In this document: positions 1,126 through 15,708 of the stretch, piece by piece
Numbering within the stretch: the stretch's first letter is position 1
Layout of the letters: each line of letters starts with the position of its first letter
Source: Nitrospira sp.
GTDB taxonomy: Bacteria > Nitrospirota > Nitrospiria > Nitrospirales > UBA8639
Reading direction: 5' to 3'
DNA: 64,000 nucleotides
NCBI GenBank assembly: GCA_011523385.1
Contig: WTGX01000004.1
Location: forward strand, 62,001-126,000
Notes under the pieces: generated by a model
Told to the model about the DNA's origin: nothing
The model's input: the letters and a program-made list of their open reading frames with translations, nothing else
Databases searched by the model: none
Program-made: the position numbers and the translations under genes

Positions 1126-2142
1126 ATGGCTGTTCCTCTCTCTCAGATGCTGAAGGTCACCAGCTACGTGATCGCGCAGAAACTCAAGGGCGTCGAACGC
1201 TATCCGTTGGTGTTGATGCTGGAGCCGCTCTTTCGATGTAATCTGGCCTGTGCCGGTTGCGGAAAAATCCAATATCCCGAACATGTCCTGGACCGGCGTT
1301 TAACGCCTGAACAATGTTGGGCGGCGGCTGAAGAATGTGGCGCCCCCGTGATCAGCATTCCCGGCGGGGAGCCACTCATTCATCCCGAGATGCCGGAAAT
1401 CGTTCGAGGATTGGTGCGCCGCAAGAAATTCGTGTATTTGTGCACGAATGCGATCCTGTTGGAACGCAAACTGGACGAGTATGAACCCTCCGACCGGTTG
1501 ATTTTCAGTATTCACATGGATGGATTGCGCGAGGAACATGATCTCGCAGTCTGTCGTGACGGGGTCTATGACGTGGCGACCAAAGCGATCAAAAGTGCCT
1601 TGAAAAGAGGATTCCGCGTCACGACCAACACGACCCTGTTCAACGATGCCAATCCGCCACGGGTTAGAGCCTTTTTTGACGAGATGATGGATCTGGGGGT
1701 GGAGGGGATGATGATTTCCCCGGGCTATAGCTACGAAAAGGCGCCTGACCAACATGGTTTTTTGAAGCGTCAGCGGACGCGCCAACTGTTTTCTGACCTG
1801 CTTGGGAAGAGAAAACGTCGCTGGCGATTTAACCAGTCACCGCTGTTCCTGGAATTTCTCATGGGCAAACGTGATTATCAATGTACCCCGTGGGGAAATC
1901 CCACCTATAATATTTTCGGTTGGCAGAAGCCCTGCTACCTCTTGCAGGATGGATACGTGTCGAGTTTCAAGGAATTGCTCGAGACGACGGAGTGGGAACG
2001 GTACGGCGTGGGGCGCCATGAGCAATGTCGGGACTGCATGGTGCATTGTGGGTTCGAAGCTTCGGCCGTGGAGGAAACGTTTGGTTCGTGGTCCGGGTTG
2101 GCCGGGACCGTGAGGGCCATGTTGTTCCCGAACGTCACCTGA
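1126..2142 (+). CDS. hpnH: Hopanoid biosynthesis radical SAM protein HpnH
   Basis: 338 residues. HpnH attaches the adenosyl moiety of S-adenosylmethionine to diploptene, the first step in extended (C35) hopanoids, at the cytoplasmic membrane. The radical SAM motif CNLACAGC (CxxxCxxC) is at about residues 37-44, followed by SIPGGEP, the glycine-rich SAM-binding segment. A second Cys cluster near the C-terminus (CRDCMVHC) resembles an auxiliary or SPASM-like ligand set. Length and motif order match the family. It begins 46 bases after tRNA-Cys and is followed within 28 bases by a small conserved gene, probably co-transcribed. The ATG at 1126 gives the family-typical N-terminus. Confidence 0.95.
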   Translation: MAVPLSQMLKVTSYVIAQKLKGVERYPLVLMLEPLFRCNLACAGCGKIQYPEHVLDRRLTPEQCWAAAEECGAPVISIPGGEPLIHPEMPEIVRGLVRRKKFVYLCTNAILLERKLDEYEPSDRLIFSIHMDGLREEHDLAVCRDGVYDVATKAIKSALKRGFRVTTNTTLFNDANPPRVRAFFDEMMDLGVEGMMISPGYSYEKAPDQHGFLKRQRTRQLFSDLLGKRKRRWRFNQSPLFLEFLMGKRDYQCTPWGNPTYNIFGWQKPCYLLQDGYVSSFKELLETTEWERYGVGRHEQCRDCMVHCGFEASAVEETFGSWSGLAGTVRAMLFPNVT

Positions 2143-2170: not shown

Positions 2171-2515
2171 GTGTTTATGTCTCAGGATGGGCTTGAAGAT
2201 CCTTCCGCGCAAAGCCTTCAGGGGGCAGTTTTCCATCCCGGCTCCCAGCAGGAGTTGCAAAGCGTCATTGAATTGGCTTTCGGCTACCGGGGGGACATTA
2301 CTCTGGAATTGAAATCCCGGGAACGGATCAACGGCTATCTGTTTAATCGCGTGTTGAATGGTCCGCACTCCTACGTGGAAATGTTTCAGGCTGCTCATTC
2401 GAGTCCACGGAGAATTCCCTGCCACGAGATTCACGCCTTCCATTTTACGGGACATGATACGGCCTCCGGAGAATCCTGGGAAGCCTGGATTCGAACACGC
2501 CGGCAGGAGAAGTAG
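2171..2515 (+). CDS. Small conserved protein downstream of hpnH
   Basis: 114 residues from a GTG at 2171; an ATG at 2177 is an equally good start, since neither has a convincing ribosome site. The central part (about residues 27-55) alternates short beta strands around GDITLELKSRERINGYLFNR. This resembles small beta-barrel proteins of Sm/LSm-like layout in which a solvent-exposed sheet binds a ligand. The segment HEIHAFHFTGHDTASG followed by SWEAW is distinctive, and I recall similar proteins in other bacteria without a settled function. No signal peptide or membrane segment is seen. The 28-base gap to hpnH suggests the same transcript. Function is unknown; the fold remark is inference. Confidence 0.7.
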   Translation: MFMSQDGLEDPSAQSLQGAVFHPGSQQELQSVIELAFGYRGDITLELKSRERINGYLFNRVLNGPHSYVEMFQAAHSSPRRIPCHEIHAFHFTGHDTASGESWEAWIRTRRQEK

Positions 2516-2992: not shown

Positions 2993-3619
2993 ATGGAGAA
3001 GGATACATGCCAAAAAATGATGAATCTTGTTGCCGTTGTGGCATTGGGATGGACGTTATCAGCCTGCGGAGAAGCCAAGCCGCCGGCCCCACCGCCTCCG
3101 GCACCTCCGGAATATGCCGATAAGCATATGCCGGATGGCTATTGGAATAATCCGGAGATTATTGAACAAGGGAAGGCGATCTTTACCGGTGTGGAAAATA
3201 TCGACGTGAATTGCGCCAGTTGCCACGGCAAGGACGGGAAGCCCGTCAAGGCCGGAGCCCGGGATTTTCGCAAGGGTGATTTCATGAAGCTGTTCTCTGA
3301 TTCCCAATGGTTCTGGCGCGTTTCCGAGGGGGTCAAGGGAACCAAAATGAAGGCTTGGAAATCAAAGCTGTCCGAGGATGAGCGGTGGAAGGTGATTGCC
3401 TATGAGTCGACCTTTGGGTTGAAAGGCCAGGAATATAGTGTCGCTGAGCAGAAATGGGTCCCCGCTGGGACGGCCAAGACGGCTGAGGAGGTAGCCGCTG
3501 AAAGGAATAAGGCTGCAGAAGGTGCAGCAGCCCCGGTGGCTGAAGAGGCGGCGGCTCCGGCGAATGGAGAGGCAGCCGCTCCGAATGGAGAAGCAGCCGG
3601 AGGAGAATCTCCCCGGTAA
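2993..3619 (+). CDS. Monohaem cytochrome c lipoprotein
   Basis: 208 residues. A short hydrophobic N-terminus ends in lipobox LSAC (Cys25), then a Pro/Ala linker (residues 28-39) leads into a class I-like cytochrome c domain with one haem site, CASCH, at residues 74-78. Candidate methionine ligands lie in the KGTKMKAW region. The last 50 residues are an Ala/Glu/Pro-rich low-complexity tail. It should be a membrane-anchored electron carrier on the periplasmic side. As first gene of the respiratory cluster, 53 bases before the bd-like gene, it probably exchanges electrons with that complex. There is no enzyme signature beyond haem binding. Confidence 0.88.
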   Translation: MEKDTCQKMMNLVAVVALGWTLSACGEAKPPAPPPPAPPEYADKHMPDGYWNNPEIIEQGKAIFTGVENIDVNCASCHGKDGKPVKAGARDFRKGDFMKLFSDSQWFWRVSEGVKGTKMKAWKSKLSEDERWKVIAYESTFGLKGQEYSVAEQKWVPAGTAKTAEEVAAERNKAAEGAAAPVAEEAAAPANGEAAAPNGEAAGGESPR

Positions 3620-3672
3620 CGCGGGCGATTCCCACGTTTTTTGCGGCATAAACGATAAGGAGGCCACCACCC

Positions 3673-5385
3673 TTGAAAACCTTAACCCGCAGTTCTGTGA
3701 TATTGGTAGGACTTGTGCTGGGCGGGCTTGCCGTCGCCTATGCCCAGTCTCCGGCTCCCCCGCCTGTGGAGTTTCCCTACACCGGGAATCGGACGGGGGT
3801 GTGGATCGTGGCCCAACTTCATATCTTGTTTGCGGCCTTCATCCTGGGAGCTCCGATATTCGCCGTGGTGTCGGAATGGTTGGGCTATAAAAACCAGGAC
3901 CCGAAGTATGATCGACTGGCCAAGGAAGTCACCAAAGTCACGGTGATCCTCTATAGTATGACCGCTTTGACGGGCGGGCTGTTTATTTTTGTCCTGCTCG
4001 CCACCTATCCCGGTTTCACCACTTGGCTCATCCAACATTTTTTCCTGATTTTCGCCGTGGTGTATCCGGTCCTGTTTATTCTCGAAACCATTATTCTGTA
4101 CGCGTATTTTTACTCCTGGGATTCCATGAAGGGTGAAAAGAAAGCCCGGCATATTGCCATCGGCGTCCTGTTGAACGTCGTCGGCACGGTCACGTTGTTC
4201 GTCATTGACGGTCCGACGGCGTTTATGAACACGCCTGCCAAATCCGCCGAAGGGGTCTCGTTGATTCAATTCGTTCAATCAGCGGGTCTGTGGGACAAGG
4301 TTGCCAATTACAGTTGGATGCCCCTGAATCTCCATCGGTTGGTCGGAAACGTGACGTTCGGCGGGTTCATCGCGGGACTGGTGGCGGCGTACATGTACAT
4401 GGGAGCCAAGACGGATGAAGAGCGTTCTTATTATGACTGGATGGGGTTCGTGGGAAATATGATCGGGGTGGGCGCCCTCCTGTTTCTCCCCTTCATGGGG
4501 TATCTCCTGGCCTATGAACTCTGTGATTACGACGCGTCCATCTGCCCGTACATGATGGCGGACCAACTGTCGATGTTTTTTGAGATGCAGGGAGCCATGG
4601 TCGGCCTGATCTTCCTGGCCAGCAATTATTATATCTGGCTGAGTATGAAGCGGATTCAAGGCGTGGAGCAGGTGCGTATCTCCGGGATGGTCATGCTTGC
4701 CGTGATTCTCATTCCGGCGGTCATGGGTGTCGCCTGGAAAATGTTCCCGCCACCGGAATGGCAGTCGCTGATTTTCCTGGCGGCACTGATCGTGCTGCCG
4801 CCGGTATTGAGCAGGCTTCCGGGTTTGCGATTTACCGTGTCGTCCTTCACCATGATCAAGGTCGGATTTCTGATGATCGTGGTCGCCAACGCCATCTGGA
4901 TGACGCCGCACGGATTCGTGGCGACACAGGGGCTGGCCACCGAAGAATTGGAACTGCCCTCCTGGGCCAGTGAATTGGCGCTGATGCCGGCGAAAAACGC
5001 GGCCGCGTTTACGCTGGTCTTTCTGACCATCGTCAACTATATTCTCTATAACCGGGCCATCAGGAGCGGCACCATTATCTGGGGGAAGATCGACTTCACG
5101 TCCCAATTCGTCCTGATCTTCCTGGCGTTCAGTGCCATCTGGACCATGGGCCTGATGGGGACGGTCCGATCCCTCACGAGAAAATACTTTCACGTGTATA
5201 ACCTTGTGCCGGACTTCACCCCCGAAGCCTTTACGCCCACGCTGGCCTATTCCGCCTGGTGGATTACGGGTGTCACCCTGGTCTTTTATCTCGTCGTAAG
5301 TTTCGCCATTATCGTGACGTTAAGAACCACCGGCCAAAAGACCGGGGCCCCGCAAGGAACTCCGGTGCCCGCCGGTGCGGAGTAA
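3673..5385 (+). CDS. Cytochrome bd-like membrane subunit 1 (CydA-related)
   Basis: 570 residues with about 13 predicted membrane helices and an N-terminal signal-like helix ending near VAYAQS. The TTG start is chosen because AAGGAGG lies at 3658-3664. Two histidines occupy positions expected of CydA haem ligands: His50 in AQLHILFAAF and His221 in LNLHRLVGNVTFGG. The CydA Q-loop signature GRQPW is not present, and no CydB partner is encoded nearby, so this is not a canonical bd quinol oxidase. Related bd-like proteins are known from Nitrospira and Leptospirillum, where their role is debated. It is a paralogue of the protein at 9259-11115. Here it sits between cytochrome c genes and a Rieske/cytochrome b pair, suggesting a subunit of one complex. 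Confidence 0.85.
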   Translation: MKTLTRSSVILVGLVLGGLAVAYAQSPAPPPVEFPYTGNRTGVWIVAQLHILFAAFILGAPIFAVVSEWLGYKNQDPKYDRLAKEVTKVTVILYSMTALTGGLFIFVLLATYPGFTTWLIQHFFLIFAVVYPVLFILETIILYAYFYSWDSMKGEKKARHIAIGVLLNVVGTVTLFVIDGPTAFMNTPAKSAEGVSLIQFVQSAGLWDKVANYSWMPLNLHRLVGNVTFGGFIAGLVAAYMYMGAKTDEERSYYDWMGFVGNMIGVGALLFLPFMGYLLAYELCDYDASICPYMMADQLSMFFEMQGAMVGLIFLASNYYIWLSMKRIQGVEQVRISGMVMLAVILIPAVMGVAWKMFPPPEWQSLIFLAALIVLPPVLSRLPGLRFTVSSFTMIKVGFLMIVVANAIWMTPHGFVATQGLATEELELPSWASELALMPAKNAAAFTLVFLTIVNYILYNRAIRSGTIIWGKIDFTSQFVLIFLAFSAIWTMGLMGTVRSLTRKYFHVYNLVPDFTPEAFTPTLAYSAWWITGVTLVFYLVVSFAIIVTLRTTGQKTGAPQGTPVPAGAE

Positions 5386-5403
5386 CGGAGGTGGGAAGCG
5401 AGT

Positions 5404-6210
5404 ATGGCTGAGCAAAGTTTGACGCGAAACATCATCAAGAAAGGCATCATTGGCGTCCTTCTGGGGATTGGCTTGGCAGGGGTGGCCAAGGCCACGCACT
5501 TTCCCCTCGTCTTCCAGGTCATGTTCTTTATTTATGCCATGCTCGGTGCCGGTGTGTTCATCCTGCTGGATGCGCCCTCCCTGAATCGTCTTGAGGGCAT
5601 CAAGGCGATCATCGGCCTGGTGCTGTTTTACCTGGTGCTTTCCGGGGTCTACATCGGCGGAGCGAGTGGCCTGCCCCAGTACGACCCGGAAGTCGAAAAA
5701 GGAAAAATCGAAAAGATCCTGAAAGCACGCCGGGCAAGGACCCAGCAAGGCAAAGCCGAAGAGCTGATCGCACGGGCCAAAGCCCTGAATGAGCGCGCCG
5801 TCTCGATCGAGCAACAATTGAAAGTCCTGGGCGGTGGCGTACAGGTCGTGGAGGAAGCCGCGACGCCCGCCTCAACGGCAGCGGCCGGGGACCTGGTGGC
5901 GCTCGGCAAAGAGCAATGGGAACTGCAAGAGTGTTACAACTGTCACAAACTCTTTGGAAAAGGCGGAAAGAAGCGGGGGCCGGAACTGGACAACATCGGC
6001 AATCTCATGACGCCTGAGGCCCTTCGGCAAAAAATCCTCGATCCCAAAAGCTGGAAGGCCGAAGGGTTCGACAAGCAGTACAAGAAGGGCAAAATGCCGG
6101 ACAAGTATAAAGATTTGATGTTCGATGAAGAGGTCGACGCGCTGGTGGCCTTTTTGGCGACGCTGAAAGACGCCTCGGTGAACACACCGAAACCCATCAA
6201 AATGAAATAA
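5404..6210 (+). CDS. Membrane-anchored monohaem cytochrome c
   Basis: 268 residues. Three hydrophobic helices occupy roughly residues 12-100. A charged coiled-coil-like stretch (residues 103-145) then leads to a C-terminal cytochrome c domain with CYNCH at residues 177-181 and probable Met ligands in KGKMPDKY. This domain order (helices, coil, haem) resembles the cytochrome c subunits of fused bc-type complexes rather than a free carrier. It starts 18 bases after the bd-like gene with a ribosome site GGAGG, and is followed 24 bases later by the Rieske gene, so it is clearly in the operon. It is likely the cytochrome c1-equivalent of the complex; that role is inference. Confidence 0.86.
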   Translation: MAEQSLTRNIIKKGIIGVLLGIGLAGVAKATHFPLVFQVMFFIYAMLGAGVFILLDAPSLNRLEGIKAIIGLVLFYLVLSGVYIGGASGLPQYDPEVEKGKIEKILKARRARTQQGKAEELIARAKALNERAVSIEQQLKVLGGGVQVVEEAATPASTAAAGDLVALGKEQWELQECYNCHKLFGKGGKKRGPELDNIGNLMTPEALRQKILDPKSWKAEGFDKQYKKGKMPDKYKDLMFDEEVDALVAFLATLKDASVNTPKPIKMK

Positions 6211-6234
6211 CCTCATCTCAGGATACGTTGGTCG

Positions 6235-7179
6235 ATGCAACCGAAAATCAAGGCTAAAGCGCGGTGTGCCGACGGGGAAGTCGGCAGTATTTCCAAGGTC
6301 ATCGTCGATCCGTTATCCCTCGAGATCAGTCACGTGGTGGTCCGGGAGGGGAGCGGGCAAGGCGTAGACCGGCAGGTTCCGGTCGGCCAGGTCCTGGAAA
6401 TCCCGAATGAAGAAGAGATCGTTTTGCGGGGGTCTCTGGAGGAATTCAGGGCGTGTCCCGTGCTGGATCGCGAGGCCTACGTTACGCATCATGAGGTGGA
6501 AATCGCCCACTTGGAAGATCGTCTCCACGTGGAGCCTGGCGAAATTCTCGTGCCCAGTCCCCGGCTCGAACAGGGGGTGCCCCGCCGCAGCTTTTTCATG
6601 AACATGACGCATGCCATCGGAACGTTAATTGCCCTTCCTCTGGCGTTCCCGGTTCTAAAATATATCATGAAGCCCATGTACAAGCCGTTCGATAATTCGT
6701 GGTTTTCCGTTGGAAACGTCCGCAAGATAAGAAAAGAAAACATCGGATACCAGTTCAAGTTTACGCGGGGCTTCAAGGAAGCGTTCATGCCCGAACAGCA
6801 AATCGAAAAAAACATCTGGGTCGTGAAGGCCACGCCTGAAGTCCAAAAGGCGGTCTACGGCGGGAAAGACAAAAAGTTTTATGACCATAAGGGAGAGTTG
6901 GTGTGGGTGAATAAAGCCAAGGCGCCCTACATCGGATTTTCCGGAAAATGCCCGCATTTGGGATGCGGGTACAAGTGGCGCAGGACGAAGAATTTTCCCG
7001 ACGGGGTCTTTCTGTGCCCCTGTCATTTAAGCATCTATGACGAGGCGGGCAAAGTGCTGGACGGCCCGGCTCCGCGGCCGCTCGACGTCCTGCCGATGCA
7101 AGTCAATGCCGCCGGGGAAGTGCAGATCATCGACGTCGAATACAAGGCCGGAGTGAAAAGCCAAATCCGGCTGCTGTAG
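6235..7179 (+). CDS. Rieske iron-sulfur protein with N-terminal PRC-barrel-like domain
   Basis: 314 residues. The C-terminal domain carries the two Rieske boxes: CPHLGC (Cys239, His241, Cys244) and CPCHLS (Cys261, Cys263, His264), giving two Cys and two His for the [2Fe-2S] cluster plus the usual disulfide pair. A membrane anchor is at about residues 123-142. The first about 90 residues (AKARCADGEVGSISKVIVDP) look like a PRC-barrel domain, an uncommon fusion for a Rieske subunit. It should take electrons from quinol and hand them to the cytochrome c subunit. It is tightly packed with the cytochrome b gene 8 bases downstream. The Rieske call is firm; the PRC call is by eye. Confidence 0.93.
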   Translation: MQPKIKAKARCADGEVGSISKVIVDPLSLEISHVVVREGSGQGVDRQVPVGQVLEIPNEEEIVLRGSLEEFRACPVLDREAYVTHHEVEIAHLEDRLHVEPGEILVPSPRLEQGVPRRSFFMNMTHAIGTLIALPLAFPVLKYIMKPMYKPFDNSWFSVGNVRKIRKENIGYQFKFTRGFKEAFMPEQQIEKNIWVVKATPEVQKAVYGGKDKKFYDHKGELVWVNKAKAPYIGFSGKCPHLGCGYKWRRTKNFPDGVFLCPCHLSIYDEAGKVLDGPAPRPLDVLPMQVNAAGEVQIIDVEYKAGVKSQIRLL

Positions 7180-7187
7180 CATCGCTC

Positions 7188-8294
7188 ATGAGCGACAATA
7201 CCACCAACGCACCCAACGCCTTTGAAAAAGTTGTCGATTTCGTCGATGAACGGGTCGGTCTGAAGACGATTCAGGCCAAAATGTTGAATGAGCCCGTTCC
7301 CGGCGGGTCTCGATGGGCGTACGCGTTCGGGTCGTGTTTGTTGTTCATCTTCATTATGCAGGTGGTGACCGGGATTCTGTTGATGTTTTACTACGTTCCG
7401 AGCACCGATCACGCGTACGCAAGCACGCAGTACATCATTCATGAAGTGGACTACGGATGGTTTCTGCTGAGTTACCATTTTTGGGGTTCCTCGGCCATGG
7501 TCGTGATGGTGTTCGCCCATATGTCGCAAGTGTTCTTGTGGGGAGCCTATAAGAAGCCCAGGGAATTGATTTGGTTGGTCGGGCTGGCCCTCTTCGGGCT
7601 GGTCATGGCGTTTGGTTTTACAGGTTACCTGCTTCCCTGGGACCAACGGGCGTACTGGGCCACGGTCGTGGGCGTCGAGATTATGGATAAGACCCCGGTC
7701 ATCGGGGATTTCCTGAGTCGTTTTTTGAAAGGCGGACCGACCCCGGGGCAAATGACCCTGAGCCGGTTTTTTGTCATTCACGTGATGATTTTGCCGGCGG
7801 CGTTAATGGGTCTGGCCGGTCTCCATCTCTTCCTGTTCCGGAAAGCCGGACCGGCCGGTCCGTTTCGTGGAACTCCCGAACAAATCAAGGCGAAGACGGA
7901 TTATTTCTTCCCCAGGCAAATCTGGAAAGACATCGTGGCCATGGCCACGGTCTTCCTGATCATTTGCACGTTGGCGTTTATCGAGCCGGTCGTGTTGTTG
8001 GAAGAGGCCACGCCGGACCCGGGGGACTATCATCCGGAACCCGAATGGTATTTTCTGTTTCTCTTCCAGATGTTGCGATTGAAGATCTTTGCCGGAGAAT
8101 TCGGTCAGTTTCTGGGTGCCGTGGCGATACCCGGAGCATTTATGGGGTTCCTCGCGGCGTTGCCTTTTCTTGACAGGAATCCGGAGCGGAATATTTTTAA
8201 ACGGCCGGTTGCGCTGATCGGCTGGATCGCCATTATGGCGGTGATCCTGATTTTCACCGTTTCCGCAATTCTGAACAGGGAATTTTTGGATTAA
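7188..8294 (+). CDS. Cytochrome b subunit of a bc/b6f-type complex
   Basis: 368 residues, one polypeptide covering the b6 part and much of subunit IV. Haem b ligands are visible as two pairs: His97 and His111 in one helix, and His198 and His213 in another. The second pair is separated by 14 residues, as in b6-type proteins. The Qo-site motif PEWY is at residues 285-288. About eight membrane helices are predicted. It oxidises and reduces quinones across the membrane in complex III. Its gene lies between the Rieske gene and a membrane protein gene starting 1 base after its stop. The identity is secure; the direction of electron flow in the cell is not shown by sequence. Confidence 0.95.
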   Translation: MSDNTTNAPNAFEKVVDFVDERVGLKTIQAKMLNEPVPGGSRWAYAFGSCLLFIFIMQVVTGILLMFYYVPSTDHAYASTQYIIHEVDYGWFLLSYHFWGSSAMVVMVFAHMSQVFLWGAYKKPRELIWLVGLALFGLVMAFGFTGYLLPWDQRAYWATVVGVEIMDKTPVIGDFLSRFLKGGPTPGQMTLSRFFVIHVMILPAALMGLAGLHLFLFRKAGPAGPFRGTPEQIKAKTDYFFPRQIWKDIVAMATVFLIICTLAFIEPVVLLEEATPDPGDYHPEPEWYFLFLFQMLRLKIFAGEFGQFLGAVAIPGAFMGFLAALPFLDRNPERNIFKRPVALIGWIAIMAVILIFTVSAILNREFLD

Positions 8295-8295
8295 G

Positions 8296-9237
8296 ATGTC
8301 GAACGCCAAACTCGGTCTGTTAGTTGTCTGGCCAACCTTCTGGACGGGCTTCCCCCTGAAACTGGTCTTGGGCCTGCTCATGTTGGCCGCCGGCGTTCAT
8401 CCCTGGGAAGGCGTCGGTCTGGAAGCGTTGCTGGTGCTTTCCATTCCCATCGACATCTGGGCGCTCGGCCTGTGCTCACGAACCGTTTTTCTGGAACGGT
8501 TGAGCGTGGACCCGCCCAAGGGAACGGGCCTTCGCTTGTGGGGGCTGTGGGCCGTTTTTTCCGTCGTTTATCTTCCCCTGTTGTTTATGATCCTGGGCGG
8601 CGTCAAGTCTCTGGCTCAATCCGCGGTCCACGCCACGTTGCATTTTGTTGAAAGCAACGTCATCGTGATTCCCATCGCGGAAAAGATCAGCCTGGAATTG
8701 GTCATGTGGGGATTGCCGGCCACCATCGTCCTGATCATCCTGGTATATGGCTGGTTGTTCGGCTTGGGCGCTTTGGCTCAACGCTTTGTTCGCGCGTCCA
8801 CGCCCGTCGAGGGGACGTTCCAGGATATCGTCTCGAAATGGGACCTTCTCAGGATTCCGCGAGATCAGCCACTCTTGCTGACGGCCTTTACGGGAACCGG
8901 CGTCGTGCTGATCATGGTGTTTTGGGGCTTGCTCCCCGTAAGCACCCCGCATCCCCATGAAGAATACGAATTCCTGGACGTGAAAAAGGCGGAAAAAAAG
9001 ATCGTTCCCAAAAAGGTCATAAAAAGCGCCGAGCAGATTCTGGCGCGCGCCGAAGCCACGTTGAAAGAATTGGAAAAAGAGAACCCCGTGGCGGAAACGG
9101 CGAAAGGGGAGAACGTAGCGGCGGGCCAGAAAAAGTCGGCACCCCTGGCGACACCGGCGGCTGCAAAGAAACCGGCGGCAACGGGTACTGCGGGGTCCGA
9201 CGGGCATGAGCACGACCATGGCGATCATAAGCATTAA
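8296..9237 (+). CDS. Multi-helix membrane protein with His-rich tail, respiratory operon
   Basis: 313 residues, five predicted membrane helices in the first about 220 residues, then a charged helical stretch rich in Lys/Glu and an Ala/Pro linker. It ends in a histidine-rich tail, DGHEHDHGDHKH, that looks able to bind metal. I do not recognise the family. It starts immediately after cytochrome b (start overlaps the intergenic base count by one) and 21 bases before the second bd-like gene, so it is almost certainly a subunit or assembly factor of the same complex. The tail could chelate copper, zinc or nickel, or simply be a chaperone-like metal buffer; this is inference. No haem-binding CxxCH is present. 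Confidence 0.8.
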   Translation: MSNAKLGLLVVWPTFWTGFPLKLVLGLLMLAAGVHPWEGVGLEALLVLSIPIDIWALGLCSRTVFLERLSVDPPKGTGLRLWGLWAVFSVVYLPLLFMILGGVKSLAQSAVHATLHFVESNVIVIPIAEKISLELVMWGLPATIVLIILVYGWLFGLGALAQRFVRASTPVEGTFQDIVSKWDLLRIPRDQPLLLTAFTGTGVVLIMVFWGLLPVSTPHPHEEYEFLDVKKAEKKIVPKKVIKSAEQILARAEATLKELEKENPVAETAKGENVAAGQKKSAPLATPAAAKKPAATGTAGSDGHEHDHGDHKH

Positions 9238-9258
9238 CGAACCAATGAGGGCTCACAT

Positions 9259-11115
9259 ATGAAAAACCACGGCATAATCGAAAATCTGAAGTCCATGGTG
9301 CCAACGGTGAAACCCTCGTCCCTCTTCGGATGGAGTGTCTTTTGGGCGCTCGTGCTTCTTCCTGCGCTTGTCTGGGCCCAGGACGCGGCCACTCAAGCCA
9401 TGTCCGTCGAATATCGCGACATTCCGGGACTCGGAAGCCGGAACGTGGTCTGGGTCGTGGCCCAACAGCATTTGCTGCTCGCCGGGTTCGTATTGGGCGT
9501 GCCGATTTTTGCCTGGGTGTGTGAAATCGTGGGGTGGAAGACCAAGGAAGCCCGGTACGACAAACTGGCAAAAGAGTTTACCAAGCTCCTGACGTCCGCG
9601 TACGCCACGACGGCCCTGTTTGGAGGCATTCTCCTCTTTTTGCTGATCGGGCTGTATCCGAAGCTCATGGCGTATTTATCCGATATCTTTTTCCCGTCCT
9701 TCATCGTGTATTGTCTGCTGTTCCTGTTGGAAACCGTCACCCTGTACCTGTACTGGTACGGATGGGACGCCATGCAGGGGAATAAAAAGACGTTCCATCT
9801 GTTTTTGGGGTTCCTCCTGAACGTCTTTGCCCTGGGTATCATGATCGTCCCCAACGCCTGGGCCACGTTTCAGGCCAGCCCCGTCGTGGTAGCCGAAGGC
9901 ACGGCGATTGACCGGGCCTGGGCGGCCACGTGGAATCCAACGTGGTGGCCGGTCAACATCCATCGACTCATTGCCAACGTTGTGTTGGGCGGGTTTATTT
10001 GCGGCGCCTATGCCGGTATCCGCTATCTTCTGGCGGCCAGTCAGGAAGAACGAGAGCATTATGACTGGATGGGCTACGTCGGAAACTTCATCGGCGTATT
10101 CGGTATGCTTCCCCTTCCCTTTGCCGGATATTGGCTCATGCGCGAGATCTATCAATACAACCAGCAGATGGGAATCACCCTCATGGGCGGTTTTCTGGCT
10201 TGGCTCTTCATCCTGCAGGCCATGCTTATCGGGGTGCTGTTCCTCGGGGCCAATTACTATTTCTGGATGGGTATTACCTACCGGATTCCCGGTTCCGAAC
10301 GATCGTACAGGCGGCCGATTCTGGCCATGCTGATCGTGCTCATGGTGTGCCTGGGCGTCTGGATGACCCCCCATTCCCTGGTGGCCAGCCTCGAGGAGGC
10401 CAGGAAGATGGGCGGGACCCATCACCCGTTGCTTGGGGTGTTCGGGGTGATGTCCGCAAAGATGACGGTCGCCAATCTCATGATCCTGGTCACATTCATG
10501 AGTTTCATCATGTATTGGCGGGCCGGCAAGCAGGAAACGGCCGCCTGGGCAAAGATCGCCAAAGCGGTGATGGGCGCCCTGCTGGTGATCGCGGGCATAG
10601 CGGTCATTGTGCTTGGGGTATGGGGGTATTTCGTGCCTGCCATTATCCGGATCAATTATTTCTCCGTCGCCCAGGTGTTGATCGTCCTGTTCGTCATGGT
10701 GACGTTCACGCCCCTGACGGCCGTGCTGATGAAAAGCGCCAAAACCACGACGGAAATGGTCTGGGGGCGGATGCCGATCCGGGCCGGGTATGCGTTGGTA
10801 TCCAATGCGGTCATGGTCATTCTGTTGATGTCGCTGATGGGCTATGCCCGATCATCGTCCAGGGTTCACTGGCACATCTACGGCGTGATGAGAGACACCT
10901 CGGAATACGCCTATTCGCCGGCGTTGGGATACGCGGCCGCCTTCATGTCCCTGAATACGTTCGTGTTCTGTTTGCTGGTGGCGTTTATCTTTTGGGTCGC
11001 CACAATGGGGGACAAGGGGAAGAAAACCCCGGACCAGGAAGAACCCGAACCGGCCAAGATCCCGGCGGGTGTGACCCCGGCCATGGCCGGCGGAGCGCCG
11101 CGGGAGAAAGCCTGA
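9259..11115 (+). CDS. Cytochrome bd-like membrane subunit 2 (CydA-related)
   Basis: 618 residues with about 13 predicted helices, paralogous to the protein at 3673-5385 along most of its length. It shares AQQHLLLAGFVLG (His71) and VNIHRLIANVVLGGF (His235) as likely haem ligands, and the GANYYFWM helix. A conserved MTPHSLVAS and a GGTHHPLLG segment add further histidines. The GRQPW Q-loop of true CydA is again missing, and there is no CydB. The C-terminus is a short Pro/Glu tail. It is in the middle of the operon, 21 bases after the previous gene. Possible roles are a terminal oxidase module, a quinone site or an electron wire; sequence alone cannot decide. Confidence 0.85.
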   Translation: MKNHGIIENLKSMVPTVKPSSLFGWSVFWALVLLPALVWAQDAATQAMSVEYRDIPGLGSRNVVWVVAQQHLLLAGFVLGVPIFAWVCEIVGWKTKEARYDKLAKEFTKLLTSAYATTALFGGILLFLLIGLYPKLMAYLSDIFFPSFIVYCLLFLLETVTLYLYWYGWDAMQGNKKTFHLFLGFLLNVFALGIMIVPNAWATFQASPVVVAEGTAIDRAWAATWNPTWWPVNIHRLIANVVLGGFICGAYAGIRYLLAASQEEREHYDWMGYVGNFIGVFGMLPLPFAGYWLMREIYQYNQQMGITLMGGFLAWLFILQAMLIGVLFLGANYYFWMGITYRIPGSERSYRRPILAMLIVLMVCLGVWMTPHSLVASLEEARKMGGTHHPLLGVFGVMSAKMTVANLMILVTFMSFIMYWRAGKQETAAWAKIAKAVMGALLVIAGIAVIVLGVWGYFVPAIIRINYFSVAQVLIVLFVMVTFTPLTAVLMKSAKTTTEMVWGRMPIRAGYALVSNAVMVILLMSLMGYARSSSRVHWHIYGVMRDTSEYAYSPALGYAAAFMSLNTFVFCLLVAFIFWVATMGDKGKKTPDQEEPEPAKIPAGVTPAMAGGAPREKA

Positions 11116-11191
11116 ACACGCGGGCGGTATCGGATCCCCCGCTTGAGAAACCGTTGACGCTGGAATTACCGAACCGGAGCGAGAGGAACCC

Positions 11192-11800
11192 ATGAGTGAA
11201 GTCGCATTACTCCAATTGATCGGTCTCACGGTCGTAGGACTCGGAATCTGCATCCTGCTCTTCATCAAGGGGAAATTCCTCAGGGTGGTCGGCTTCGTGG
11301 TGATCGTATTGGGGACGTTTACCCTGATTGCGTTGGGGGTGCCGCAGATGGCCTCCCTGCCTCCGGCAATCGAAACCTTTGACATTGCCGAAGTCAAGAC
11401 GCCGGATGATCTGGCCTCTATCGGGCAAAAGATTTTCTTCAGCAAAGGGCAGTGCGCCCTGTGTCATTCCATCGGCCCCAGTGAATCGGCCAGGTGTCCG
11501 GATTTGAAGGGCATCGGGGCGAAACTCGCTCCGGAATTCATCTATGAAAGCCTCACCGACCCGCAGGCCTATATTTATCTGGATTTCAGGCATGAAGGTC
11601 TGCCCAAGGAATATCCGGCACGGATGCCCTATATCCACAAGAATCCGATTGCCTTGTCGCAACAAGAGATATATTCGGTCATTTCCTTTCTCCAGAAAAT
11701 GAGCGGGGAACCCATTAGCGTCAAAATCGAAGACGTGATGAATATCGGCAAGGAAAACGAGATGGAGGTCGCTTCCCTCACCGTCAATGGAGCACCTTAA
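11192..11800 (+). CDS. Membrane-anchored monohaem cytochrome c
   Basis: 202 residues. Two hydrophobic segments span about residues 5-50, then a cytochrome c domain has CALCH at residues 88-92. A ribosome site GAGAGGA precedes the ATG. Met residues in ARMPYIH are plausible sixth ligands. It is separated from bd-like 2 by 76 bases and from the next cytochrome gene by 15 bases. It is likely a redox subunit linking the b-type core to periplasmic carriers. Similar in layout but not in sequence detail to the next gene, so they are not recent duplicates. Confidence 0.85.
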   Translation: MSEVALLQLIGLTVVGLGICILLFIKGKFLRVVGFVVIVLGTFTLIALGVPQMASLPPAIETFDIAEVKTPDDLASIGQKIFFSKGQCALCHSIGPSESARCPDLKGIGAKLAPEFIYESLTDPQAYIYLDFRHEGLPKEYPARMPYIHKNPIALSQQEIYSVISFLQKMSGEPISVKIEDVMNIGKENEMEVASLTVNGAP

Positions 11801-11815
11801 CCAAAAGGGTGAATT

Positions 11816-12541
11816 ATGAAAGGTCCTCTTGCGAAAACGGCTATCCTGTTGGTGGGCATGTATGTGTTTCTCAAATTCATACTCCCGCTGATCACAGCAC
11901 CGCTCCCGGCCAGTCTGATTTTCCTGTACCTGGCGCTGACCCTTGCCTCTGCGATGATTTTCTATACCATGAGCGGGGGAAGCCTGGACGAATTCATGGG
12001 CCCCATCGGGCGATTCCTCACCGGCTCGGGACAGGCGGGCATCGCCGGGACCGCGCGTATTCTGGTGTTCGTGTTGTTTCCCCTGTTGGTAGGGTGGCAA
12101 ACGTACACCCGGCTCGCCCCGAGCGATATGCCGCCGGCGGAAAATCGAACCATTCATCCCGCGCCTCCGGGCGAGTTTGTCGGGCTGGCCAACCCGTATC
12201 CGACGACGCCGGAAAATATCATGATGGGGAAAGGTCTCTATGCGGCGTTTTGTTCACCCTGTCACGGAGCCAACTTCGACGGGAAAGGCCCGGCCGCGGT
12301 GGGCTTCAATCCGCCTCCGGCGAATTTCAGCGATCCGGGAACCATCGCCCAATTGCAGGAATCCTATCTTTTCTGGCGGATCAAGAAAGGCGGCGTCGGG
12401 CTTCCGGTCGAAGCCATGCCCTGGAAATCAGCCATGCCGCGATGGGAAGTGGAATTGCCGGACGAATGGATCTGGAAAATCATCATGGGTGAATACGACG
12501 GTGCCGGCCAGTCTCCACGGACATGGGAGGAAGAGGAATAG
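11816..12541 (+). CDS. Membrane-anchored monohaem cytochrome c
   Basis: 241 residues. Three predicted helices in the first about 100 residues precede a periplasmic cytochrome c domain with CSPCH at residues 146-150. Candidate axial methionines lie in EAMPWKSAMPRW. The haem is close to GANFDGKGPAAVGFNPPPANF, which resembles cytochromes that accept electrons from molybdopterin enzymes or from bc complexes. It follows the previous cytochrome by 15 bases. The next gene encodes an ethylbenzene-dehydrogenase-type haem-domain protein 78 bases away. Confidence 0.86.
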   Translation: MKGPLAKTAILLVGMYVFLKFILPLITAPLPASLIFLYLALTLASAMIFYTMSGGSLDEFMGPIGRFLTGSGQAGIAGTARILVFVLFPLLVGWQTYTRLAPSDMPPAENRTIHPAPPGEFVGLANPYPTTPENIMMGKGLYAAFCSPCHGANFDGKGPAAVGFNPPPANFSDPGTIAQLQESYLFWRIKKGGVGLPVEAMPWKSAMPRWEVELPDEWIWKIIMGEYDGAGQSPRTWEEEE

Positions 12542-12619
12542 GTAACGGGGTGAGGTCGCGTCCTCGCAGGTCCGGCGATTCCCGGAAACGTCGCAGGGAA
12601 GGACCCAAGGAGCAGGAAA

Positions 12620-13456
12620 ATGGGATATAAGAAAATCTTCAACGTCGCGTTTGGGCTCACCCTCATGGTGACGGGAGCCGGGGCTTCCTGCGTGTTCGCA
12701 AGCGACCCGCCGCCGGAAGGCGGAGCCGGAAGTGTGGCCGTTCGTCTGCATTTGACCGACGAAGCCGTCCCTGCGGATGATCCGAACGCCGCGGTGTGGA
12801 ACACGATCCAGCCGGCGGAATTCAAGTTGGCTCCACAGGTTCATTGGCCGGACCGTATTCAGGAAGTCACGGTGAAGTCCGTGAAGGTCCGCGGAATCCA
12901 TAATGGCCAGGATTTGGCGATGCTCCTGGAATATGCCGACCCGTCCGAAGATGCCGCGGATGCCGCCGCCATCGAGTTTATGGTCGGCGATAAAATGGCC
13001 CACTTCGCCCATGGGCAGGAAATGCTCCAGGTCGAGGGGGGAGACGTCAACATCTGGTACTGGAAAAAAGAACACGGCAAAGCCACCGATATGAGTGCCA
13101 AGGGGTTCAAGACGCTTCGGGCACAAGAAAACCAGAACGTCTCGGCAACGGGAGCCTGGCAGGACGGAACGTGGCGCGTCGTGTTTTCCCGTCCGCTGCA
13201 AACGGGTGATGAACATGACGTGCAAGTCACCCCCGGTGAATGGCGAAACGTGGCGTTCGCGTTTTGGGACGGGGAAATCGTGGATGGGGCCGTGAAAGAA
13301 AGAGGGTCACAGAAAGCCGTGTCGTCATGGTGGTACTTTCGGGCCGAGCCGCCACCGGACAATTCCATTTATGGATACGTCGTGTTGGGCATCGTGCTTG
13401 CTGCCGGTTTTGAGTTTTTCCTGGTGAGAAAAATTCGGAGGGGTAACGAATCATGA
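12620..13456 (+). CDS. Ethylbenzene-dehydrogenase-type haem-binding protein (NxrC-like), membrane anchored
   Basis: 278 residues. An N-terminal signal peptide ends near CVFAS, a beta-rich domain follows (about residues 35-235), and a single C-terminal helix (YGYVVLGIVLAAGFEFF) anchors the protein. The beta domain resembles the family that binds haem b in the gamma subunit of ethylbenzene dehydrogenase and in the proposed NxrC of Nitrospira nitrite oxidoreductase. Supporting segments are VAVRLHLTDEAVPADDP with the WNTIQPAEF box, and WRVVFSRPLQT. The start is supported by AAGGAG eight bases upstream. In this operon it may pass electrons between an outside donor and the bc/bd-like complex. The NxrC comparison is from memory of the family, not from alignment. 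Confidence 0.78.
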   Translation: MGYKKIFNVAFGLTLMVTGAGASCVFASDPPPEGGAGSVAVRLHLTDEAVPADDPNAAVWNTIQPAEFKLAPQVHWPDRIQEVTVKSVKVRGIHNGQDLAMLLEYADPSEDAADAAAIEFMVGDKMAHFAHGQEMLQVEGGDVNIWYWKKEHGKATDMSAKGFKTLRAQENQNVSATGAWQDGTWRVVFSRPLQTGDEHDVQVTPGEWRNVAFAFWDGEIVDGAVKERGSQKAVSSWWYFRAEPPPDNSIYGYVVLGIVLAAGFEFFLVRKIRRGNES

Positions 13457-14532
13457 AGGGAGAGCAAGGCATGCAGCGGGTACTGAGCAAGGTCGCCATC
13501 GTGGTCGTCGCGGTGTTTGCCGTGACGAGCGGCTGCGCCTTGTTTGAAGATGAACGGACGGCAAAAGGCCGAAAACTCTATCGTCACTACTGCATGCACT
13601 GTCACGGCGAAAGCGGACAACAGCAGGAGGGCTTTAACTGGGAAAGGATGCCGGACCCACGTCCCCGCGACCTGTCGGAAGACGCGGCGATGTCGACCTT
13701 CTCGGACGAAGAAATCTTCAACACAATTTCCCGGGACATGCGCGATACCTCGTTGCAGGAAGTGATCGACGATGAAAATTACTTCGCGGTCTCGACCATG
13801 CCGACCTTCAAATATACGCTCTCCGAAGAAGAACTCTGGGCCGTGGTCGGCTACGTGCGAACGCTTCACGGCGGGTCGTTGACGTTTGACGTCGACGGCC
13901 GGAAAGCCGAACTGGAGTCCCAATTCCAAGCCGTCAACGCGGCCCATGATCAAGCCAAACAGGCCATGGATGAAGCCTTGGCGAAACAGGAAGCCGAAGA
14001 AGCCGCCAGGGCCGAGGCCGAAGAAGAAGCCGAGGAAGACGACGAAGACCTGGACATGGAGGACGAAGAAGATCTGGAAGACTACGACGATGAAGAAGAG
14101 GAGATCGTGCTTCCCGAAGAAGAGGCCTATGAAAAAGTGGCGGAGCAGTTTGAAGCCGCCAAGGCCGCTTTGGAAAATTTCTCGAAACGTCCGAAAATGA
14201 CTCAAATTGCGCGTCCGGACCTGACCACGACGGACGAGGAACGGGTCGCCCTTCAGGATAAAGGGAAAAATCTGTACTTCAACAAATACGGCTGTAACGG
14301 GTGTCACAGTGTCGGCGACACCGGGGGCCTGGTGGGACCAGCCTTGGACCGTGCCGGATTCCGCCTCAACGACACATGGGTCTATCGCTGGGTCCGTTAC
14401 CCGCAAGGCATGAAAAAGCACACACGCATGCCGAACTTGGGGCTTGATGACCCGGATGCGCGAGCCATAACGGCCTATCTCGACACCCTGCGTGCACCAA
14501 AACCGGACAAGCCCATCCCCCCACCTGAATAA
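13453..14532 (+). CDS. Dihaem cytochrome c lipoprotein with acidic linker
   Basis: 359 residues. A lipobox VTSGC follows a short hydrophobic segment; an alternative ATG at 13471 would give a more compact signal. Two haem sites are present: CMHCH at residues 47-51 and CNGCH at 281-285. Between them lies a long helical region, including an extremely acidic run of Glu/Asp around 14035-14110. The second haem domain contains the usual GPALDRAG and a Met in TRMPNL. Its ATG overlaps the stop of the previous gene by four bases (ATGA), indicating translational coupling. It is the last gene of the cluster and the fifth cytochrome c gene, bringing the total to six c haems. Confidence 0.88.
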   Translation: MKGEQGMQRVLSKVAIVVVAVFAVTSGCALFEDERTAKGRKLYRHYCMHCHGESGQQQEGFNWERMPDPRPRDLSEDAAMSTFSDEEIFNTISRDMRDTSLQEVIDDENYFAVSTMPTFKYTLSEEELWAVVGYVRTLHGGSLTFDVDGRKAELESQFQAVNAAHDQAKQAMDEALAKQEAEEAARAEAEEEAEEDDEDLDMEDEEDLEDYDDEEEEIVLPEEEAYEKVAEQFEAAKAALENFSKRPKMTQIARPDLTTTDEERVALQDKGKNLYFNKYGCNGCHSVGDTGGLVGPALDRAGFRLNDTWVYRWVRYPQGMKKHTRMPNLGLDDPDARAITAYLDTLRAPKPDKPIPPPE

Positions 14533-14811: not shown

Positions 14812-15708
14812 CTACATCGTTCCTACCCAGATCACGACCAGGAGAACAAGGCCGATGCCCGTGTGTTGTTTGAACATGGAAAACGCCTCTGAGGGGGAGA
14901 CGCTGCCTCGCAGGCGAAGGACTTGTTGGCTCAAGAACCCTGCGACTCCGGCGAGTCCTCCATAAAACACCACATTCAGATTTTCCAGCCAACCCGCCGT
15001 TGCCAACAGCGCCAGCATGGCCGTCTCGATGATGCCCACGGCGACCCATACGTGAGAACCGAACAGAATCGCCGATGAGTTCACCCCGATACGAAGGTCG
15101 TCCTCAATGTCCTGAAGTGCATAAATGGTATCGTAGGCCAGGGCCCAGCAGATCGTGGCGGTGAAGAGCAGCCAGACCGCGGGATCGAGCTGATTGCGAA
15201 CGGCAGCCCAAGCCATCACGGCACCCCATCCGAACGCCAGCCCGAGAAAGAGTTGAGGGACACGAAAGAACCGTTTCGTAAAGGGATAGATCGCGGCCAA
15301 TGCCAAGGCGACCGGGCCGAGCCGTATGGCCAGCGGATTCAGGGACAACAGGAGGCTCACGGCTATGGCAAGGAGAACGCCGAGGAACAGGATGGCGTGC
15401 CAGGGGCGAAGGACCCCACTGGCGAGCGGCCGGGTTTGAGTGCGGGTGACTTGCCGGTCGAATGATCGATCGGCCAAATCATTAATAATGACTCCGGCGC
15501 TTCGCATGATGAACGACCCCGCAATGAAAAGAACGATCAGCAGGCCTGATGGACGGCCCTTTGATGCCAGGACCAATGCCCACAGGCACGGAAGCATGAG
15601 CAAGAGGGTGCCCGTTTGATTCGACAGTCTGATCAGGGAGCACAGTTGAGCGAACGAAAACCGGGGGATGGATGCCGAATTGGATCTGCCGGCCGGAGAG
15701 GACATCAC
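14812..15708 (-). CDS. ubiA: UbiA-family prenyltransferase (4-hydroxybenzoate polyprenyltransferase-like)
   Basis: 298 residues, about eight membrane helices. It would join a polyprenyl chain to an aromatic acceptor in quinone synthesis. The first prenyl-diphosphate motif NDLADRSFD is at residues 76-84, and the second Asp-rich motif is in YDTIYALQDIEDD further on. The spacing and the SFD/RPLASG context are typical of UbiA rather than MenA or haem O synthase. A second ATG one codon downstream is also possible. It faces the respiratory operon tail to tail, and a quinone enzyme next to a quinol complex fits. Whether the product is ubiquinone-like or another prenylated ring is not determined here. 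Confidence 0.88.
   Translation of the reverse strand: MMSSPAGRSNSASIPRFSFAQLCSLIRLSNQTGTLLLMLPCLWALVLASKGRPSGLLIVLFIAGSFIMRSAGVIINDLADRSFDRQVTRTQTRPLASGVLRPWHAILFLGVLLAIAVSLLLSLNPLAIRLGPVALALAAIYPFTKRFFRVPQLFLGLAFGWGAVMAWAAVRNQLDPAVWLLFTATICWALAYDTIYALQDIEDDLRIGVNSSAILFGSHVWVAVGIIETAMLALLATAGWLENLNVVFYGGLAGVAGFLSQQVLRLRGSVSPSEAFSMFKQHTGIGLVLLVVIWVGTM

Follow-up and report, generated by a model that had tools for sequence, protein, structure and literature searches.

Two separable modules in a Nitrospira respiratory gene cluster: a possible operon for a joined complex III–complex IV

How O2 is reduced, and how electrons are pushed uphill to quinone, in Nitrospira, the most widespread nitrite oxidisers, is an unsettled question. 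In the window analysed here (the whole stretch of 64,000 nucleotides of Nitrospira sp. DNA), eleven ORFs, all on the + strand, occupy positions 2993–14532. A preliminary description had seen in them a one-strand cluster with two CydA-like proteins, a Rieske protein, a cytochrome b and six c haems, and the ORFs, the profile matches and the haem-motif counts agree with it: Pfam/NCBIfam recognised Rieske, cytochrome b, five cytochromes c, a DMSO-reductase-type haem-b protein (NxrC/EbdC-like) and two Cyt_bd_oxida_I, and the five cytochrome c genes hold 1+1+1+1+2 = 6 CXXCH motifs, the same number in every homologue examined. The cluster is already known as the published CIII_1/bd-like_1/bd-like_2/alt_nxrC_1 region of Nitrospira. 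A supercomplex III–IV has been proposed for the N. moscoviensis locus, and all its parts are strongly transcribed in that organism (PMC6606698); a joint III–IV unit with a bd-like oxidase is thus in print (PMC6606698; PMC12342949). We give about even chances that the eleven genes form a single operon encoding a joined complex III–complex IV of Nitrospirales, put together from two modules with the roles proposed below. The module split and the clusters in genomes without NxrA are refinements, which we did not find stated in the literature examined, a scope that leaves Murali 2021 and Lücker 2010 outside.

The genes fall into module A (c1-bd1-c2-Rieske-cytb-TMhis-c5) and module B (bd2-c3-c4-NxrC-like). 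Module A begins with c1 (2993–3619), a lipoprotein-like monohaem cytochrome c with a lipobox at C25 and CXXCH at residue 74, followed by bd1 (3673–5385), a CydA-like protein with a signal peptide and 13 hydrophobic segments, which is the published bd-like_1 and probably OR-N1, and by c2 (5404–6210), a membrane-anchored monohaem cytochrome c. The Rieske [2Fe-2S] protein (6235–7179; ligands C239/H241/C261/H264), cytochrome b (7188–8294; 7 TM; H97/H111/H198/H213; PEWY at 285–288), in which a b6 part and a C-terminal part are fused, and TMhis (8296–9237), a membrane protein with 5-6 TM, come next. Module B consists of bd2 (9259–11115), the other CydA-like protein, again with a signal peptide and 13 hydrophobic segments, which is the published bd-like_2/complex IV and probably a NIDE0901-like OR-N2, as inferred via the N. 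defluvii locus L051; of two membrane-anchored monohaem cytochromes c, c3 (11192–11800) and c4 (11816–12541); and of the NxrC/EbdC-like protein (12620–13456), the published alt_NxrC_1, with a predicted haem b and a C-terminal TM helix. The last gene, c5 (13453–14532), encodes a dihaem cytochrome c with a lipobox at C28 and belongs to module A. Its two haem domains are separated by a long Glu/Asp-rich insert (window 13980–14130), possibly a docking or linker region.

From c1 to c5 the genes are spaced by 53, 18, 24, 8, 1, 21, 76, 15, 78 and −4 nt. The two start/stop overlaps described earlier reduce to a single one, of 4 nt between nxrC and c5, since 1 nt separates cytb from the gene after it. 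Scanning the c1–bd1, bd2–c3 and c4–nxrC gaps gave no terminator-like site. A sigma-70 scan returned 8 promoter-like sites against 7.3 in shuffles, that is, no excess, so that the scan is uninformative on the start of transcription.

The Rieske ligands, the four cytochrome b His and the PEWY motif are kept in 63/63 and 66/66 homologues, and S266/Y268, the Ser/Tyr pair that high-potential Rieske proteins have, is invariant. Together, S266/Y268 and the PEWY of cytochrome b fit a higher-potential benzoquinone. These ligands and the PEWY Qo motif are common to the cluster and to b6f/bc1 complexes, from which it differs in the CydA-like partner, in the PRC-barrel-like extension of the Rieske protein and in cytochrome b itself: b6-like in its match to PRK03735 (226 bits), this is a single chain of 368 aa with A46 where b6f has the c_n Cys. 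A genuine b6f was rejected, since the c_n Cys is missing and b6 and subunit IV are not split. The PRC-barrel-like domain fused to this respiratory Rieske protein lies at window 6235–6510, and a PRC-barrel domain was found at the Rieske N terminus in 12 of 21 homologues. As for the NxrC-like protein, it scores 107 bits against TIGR03477, below the cut-off of 169.85, and its invariant Lys232 aligns with Kuenenia NxrC (7b04_C).

The comparison of gene order across relatives proposed in the preliminary description was carried out with one contig scan using bd2 as query, which yielded 80 loci, mainly of Nitrospirota, N. moscoviensis and N. defluvii included. The 11 genes stand in identical order and on the same strand in 52 of the 80, which are all of the loci long enough to be read (52/52), N. 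moscoviensis (L028) having the same content and order as here; in the other 28 the cluster breaks off at a contig end or, for L013, at an N-run, so that the arrangement is not a product of chance. L013 was accordingly rejected as a split cluster, the N-run being an assembly gap, and two apparent reorderings (L002 and L015) were rejected because these loci are truncated and the altered order came from weak cross-hits between cytochromes c. Unlinked orthologues, named beforehand as an observation that would speak against a single unit, are found in one genome outside the order Nitrospirales, G375. It is quite possible, although we place it below an even chance, that the eleven genes, while co-regulated, encode a bc-type complex and a bd-like oxidase that are separate and form no physical supercomplex: the modules come apart in evolution, and binding does not follow from co-transcription alone. 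On the other hand, the order is invariant across Nitrospirales, the modules are interleaved, c5 of module A standing after module B, and the several membrane-anchored cytochromes c suggest a fixed electron wiring.

The separation of the modules is seen in several genomes. In two members of genus g12, G041 and G038, the locus reads c1-bd1-c2-Rieske-cytb-TMhis-c3-c5 without interruption; bd2, c4 and the NxrC-like gene are missing from it, no bd2 orthologue was found elsewhere in either genome, nor any NxrA, COX1 or CydB, and bd1 retains all its conserved His. The module borders are therefore imperfect, c3 remaining with module A in both. In G375, c1-bd1-c2-Rieske-cytb-TMhis-c5 lies on contig C63 and bd2-c3-c4-NxrC on contig C29. 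These three genomes (G038, G041 and G375) are incomplete MAGs of 90, 96 and 85%, respectively. Module B has a colinear paralogue, bd3-c-c-NxrC, whose bd3 is 42% identical to bd2, and it is tandemly duplicated in L148 (G319:C94), where a divergent bd2b, 47% identical to bd2, groups with bd3/bd4. In a tree built without the Murali CydA reference set, with the OR-N1/OR-N2 names taken from PMC12342949 and PMC10839748, bd1 forms one clade (99/99), bd2 joins bd3/bd4 (96/74), and all are separate from CydA. Taken together, these loci and the tree indicate that module B is copied and moved as a unit and that bd1 stays with Rieske/b.

The cluster is thus a fusion of two separable modules, and bd1 and bd2 probably differ in their job. 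This suggests that bd1 goes with the Rieske/b unit and that bd2 is the candidate oxidase, against a simple bd1+bd2 heterodimer. More tentatively, bd1 (OR-N1), rather than being half of the terminal oxidase, might be the constitutive CydA-like subunit of a novel complex III made up of Rieske, fused cytochrome b, TMhis and bd1 itself, with a mobile oxidase module (bd2-c-c-NxrC) joined to it in one operon. The relatives with module A and no bd2 make the roles of both bd-like proteins separately testable.

In the published view, bd1 (OR-N1) and bd2 (OR-N2) form a heteromeric cytochrome c oxidase of the CydAA' type, which has been proposed for Nitrospirales and Nitrospinota (PMC12342949; PMC10839748), and Rieske/cytochrome b stand alongside as complex III; bd-like_2 is a proposed cytochrome-c-oxidising OR-N oxidase. 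Indeed, bd1 and bd2 resemble the OR-N type CydAA' in that they are two co-encoded paralogues of the CydA superfamily which have lost the quinol site and come without CydB; both genes occur in nearly every relative, no clear bd2-only genome was found, and this co-occurrence in almost all genomes keeps the heteromer under consideration. They differ in that the module evidence puts bd1 with Rieske/b and not necessarily with bd2: bd1, with its conserved His complete, accompanies Rieske/b in the two genomes that have no bd2, the bd2 of G375 sits with c3-c4-NxrC on another contig without bd1, and the colinear bd3 and bd2b modules have no bd1-like neighbour. A CydAA' pair appears to us, on balance, rather unlikely.

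As to the bd-like proteins themselves, the CydA profile search and haem-ligand alignment suggested in the preliminary description gave PF01654 matches above cut-off for both, and an alignment with the CydA of E. coli and that of Nitrospira showed that the equivalents of E. coli H19/E107/H186 are kept, as H50/E138/H221 in bd1 and H71/E158/H235 in bd2, the haem-ligand His (H50/H221 and H71/H235) being invariant among homologues. In E. coli bd-II, haem d is bound by His19, haem b595 by Glu445 and haem b558 by His186/Met393 (PMC8585947). The position of E. coli E99 is an invariant Tyr in both proteins (Tyr131 in bd1), and the quinol site is gone, with I/M at K252 and M at E257; E445 is replaced by L. 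The GRQPW string reported as missing is indeed absent from bd1 and bd2, but this string does not form the quinol loop, whose residues K252/E257 are missing as well; of the E445/GRQPW block, both proteins retain R448, and bd2 alone W451. Eight residues (H71, E158, H235, H372, H388, H389, H537 and H539) are invariant in 80/80 bd2 homologues, H388 being the sole bd2-only residue among the histidines examined. Judging from hydropathy, the cleaved signal peptide, 13 TM and K+R counts, the loops with H372/H388/H389/H537/H539, as well as H71 and H235, would be periplasmic. A copper site was reportedly proposed earlier for NIDE0901. The AlphaFold model of bd2 has a pLDDT of 56 and thus lends the haem geometry no support.

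The 2.5 Mb genome to which the window belongs, with an estimated completeness of 100%, was searched as a whole: it has no COX1 or other haem-copper oxidase, no PF02322 match, which bears out the earlier statement on the missing CydB, a single cytochrome b, inside the cluster, and a single NxrA. A canonical CydAB oxidase was consequently rejected, both CydB and the quinol site being absent. Among 14 members of the genus, 13 lack COX1, all lack CydB and 13 have a single cytochrome b; N. moscoviensis, by contrast, has also CIII_2 and two CydAB oxidases. CydA-like genes number four, two in the cluster and two on contig C20, in line with a sponge symbiont of this kind for which four bd-like oxidases, no cbb3 and no ACIII were reported (PMC11812461). 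Since there is no haem-copper oxidase, no CydB and only one cytochrome b, the cluster and one paralogous bd-like module elsewhere are the whole recognisable III–IV machinery of this small sponge-lineage genome, which represents a minimal case. The second locus (L086, G000:C20:12000-31999) encodes bd3, a dihaem c, a c, a dihaem NxrC-like protein, two formylglycine-generating-enzyme-like proteins, so labelled by eye from the sequence, and bd4. It is the published bd-like_3/4 cluster; the bd-like_3/alt_NxrC_2 cluster of Nitrospira, Nitrospina and anammox bacteria is colinear with module B (bd-c-c-NxrC), and differs in having no adjoining Rieske or cytochrome b and an extra haem c in its alt_NxrC_2.

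The absence of COX1 and CydB genome-wide supports a bd-like protein as the oxidase, and the supercomplex with a bd-like oxidase put forward in the preliminary description holds in this respect, less so as a single unit, given the two separable modules and the probably different jobs of bd1 and bd2. It is quite improbable that the bd-like proteins have no oxidase function and instead serve an alternative complex III for reverse electron flow, as subunits that carry haem and transfer electrons or reduce quinone. Such a role was suggested for related bd-like proteins found in Nitrospina and in anammox bacteria (PMC3578206), the latter being anaerobes that carry a bd3-type module, and both E445, the ligand of haem b595, and E99 have been lost; yet this genome, like nearly all its congeners, lacks any further candidate for an oxygen reductase, although its lineage is one of aerobic nitrite oxidisers, the residues of the quinol site are missing, and quinone access is already given by the Rieske/b pair.

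A joint III–IV unit with a bd-like protein as oxidase is the best reading of the sequence. Module A would act as a quinone:cytochrome c oxidoreductase, which a nitrite oxidiser would run largely in reverse, so that electrons at the level of cytochrome c could pass through Rieske and cytochrome b to methyl-plastoquinone, driven by the proton-motive force; methyl-plastoquinone, at about +58 mV, is the quinone of Nitrospira (PMC12324825). In module B the NxrC-like haem b, c4 and c3 would bring electrons from periplasmic donors, here the NXR pathway, to bd2, which, as a member of the bd superfamily without a quinol site, may reduce O2 close to the periplasmic face of the membrane, with protons taken from the cytoplasm. 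Electrons would branch at the NxrC-like/c subunits, towards bd2 and O2 or in reverse via Rieske/cytochrome b to quinone, and bd1 may be a second haem-bearing CydA-like subunit, primarily of module A. The bd3/bd4 module could be the oxidase instead; since no candidate besides it and the cluster is present, we infer that a bd-like protein must generate the proton-motive force of nitrite oxidation, by cytoplasmic proton uptake or pumping.

The cluster was also said to suit a nitrite oxidiser, a view that does not extend to specificity: the full cluster occurs in G214, G219 and G288, none of which has an NxrA match, and this indicates that it is not nitrite-specific; G259 and G319 have bd1 and bd2, likewise with no NxrA match. 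In G288 (L109 10040–15905), two Proton_antipo_M subunits lie within module B, between c3 and c4, and bd2 and c3 are fused in one ORF of 805 aa. This antiporter pair resembles the MrpD-like pair reported for TO_2 of Ca. Manganitrophaceae, whose TO_1/TO_2 combine, as here, a bd-like protein with a periplasmic NxrC/EbdC-like cytochrome b (PMC9040806). Unlike them, the window holds no antiporter subunits, and its donor is presumably nitrite via NXR.

Almost every sampled genome of the order Nitrospirales has TMhis, as do a few related families. The protein matched no Pfam family, and its AlphaFold model (pLDDT 76) gave no match better than E 0.6 among PDB folds. The metal-binding tail noted earlier for this protein is present as a His-rich tail, but is confined to close relatives, the invariant His being H219/H221; the last helix and the HPH region are the only part common to distant homologues. 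Such tails, with GHEHDHGDHKH and GGHDHAMGGHDHAMGG repeats, occur in two separate lineages (window 9199–9237; L112 9362–9880), the second being genus g12, and most homologues are without.

Beside the cluster, a gene for the hopanoid radical SAM protein HpnH (window 1126–2142, +) and an ORF of 114 aa with no Pfam match (window 2171–2515, +) are each kept upstream in about 50 of the 80 loci. Downstream, a convergent gene for UbiA (4-hydroxybenzoate octaprenyltransferase; window 14812–15708, −), with an NCBIfam score above cut-off, is the neighbour in 62 of the 80 loci and may possibly take part in the synthesis of methyl-plastoquinone.
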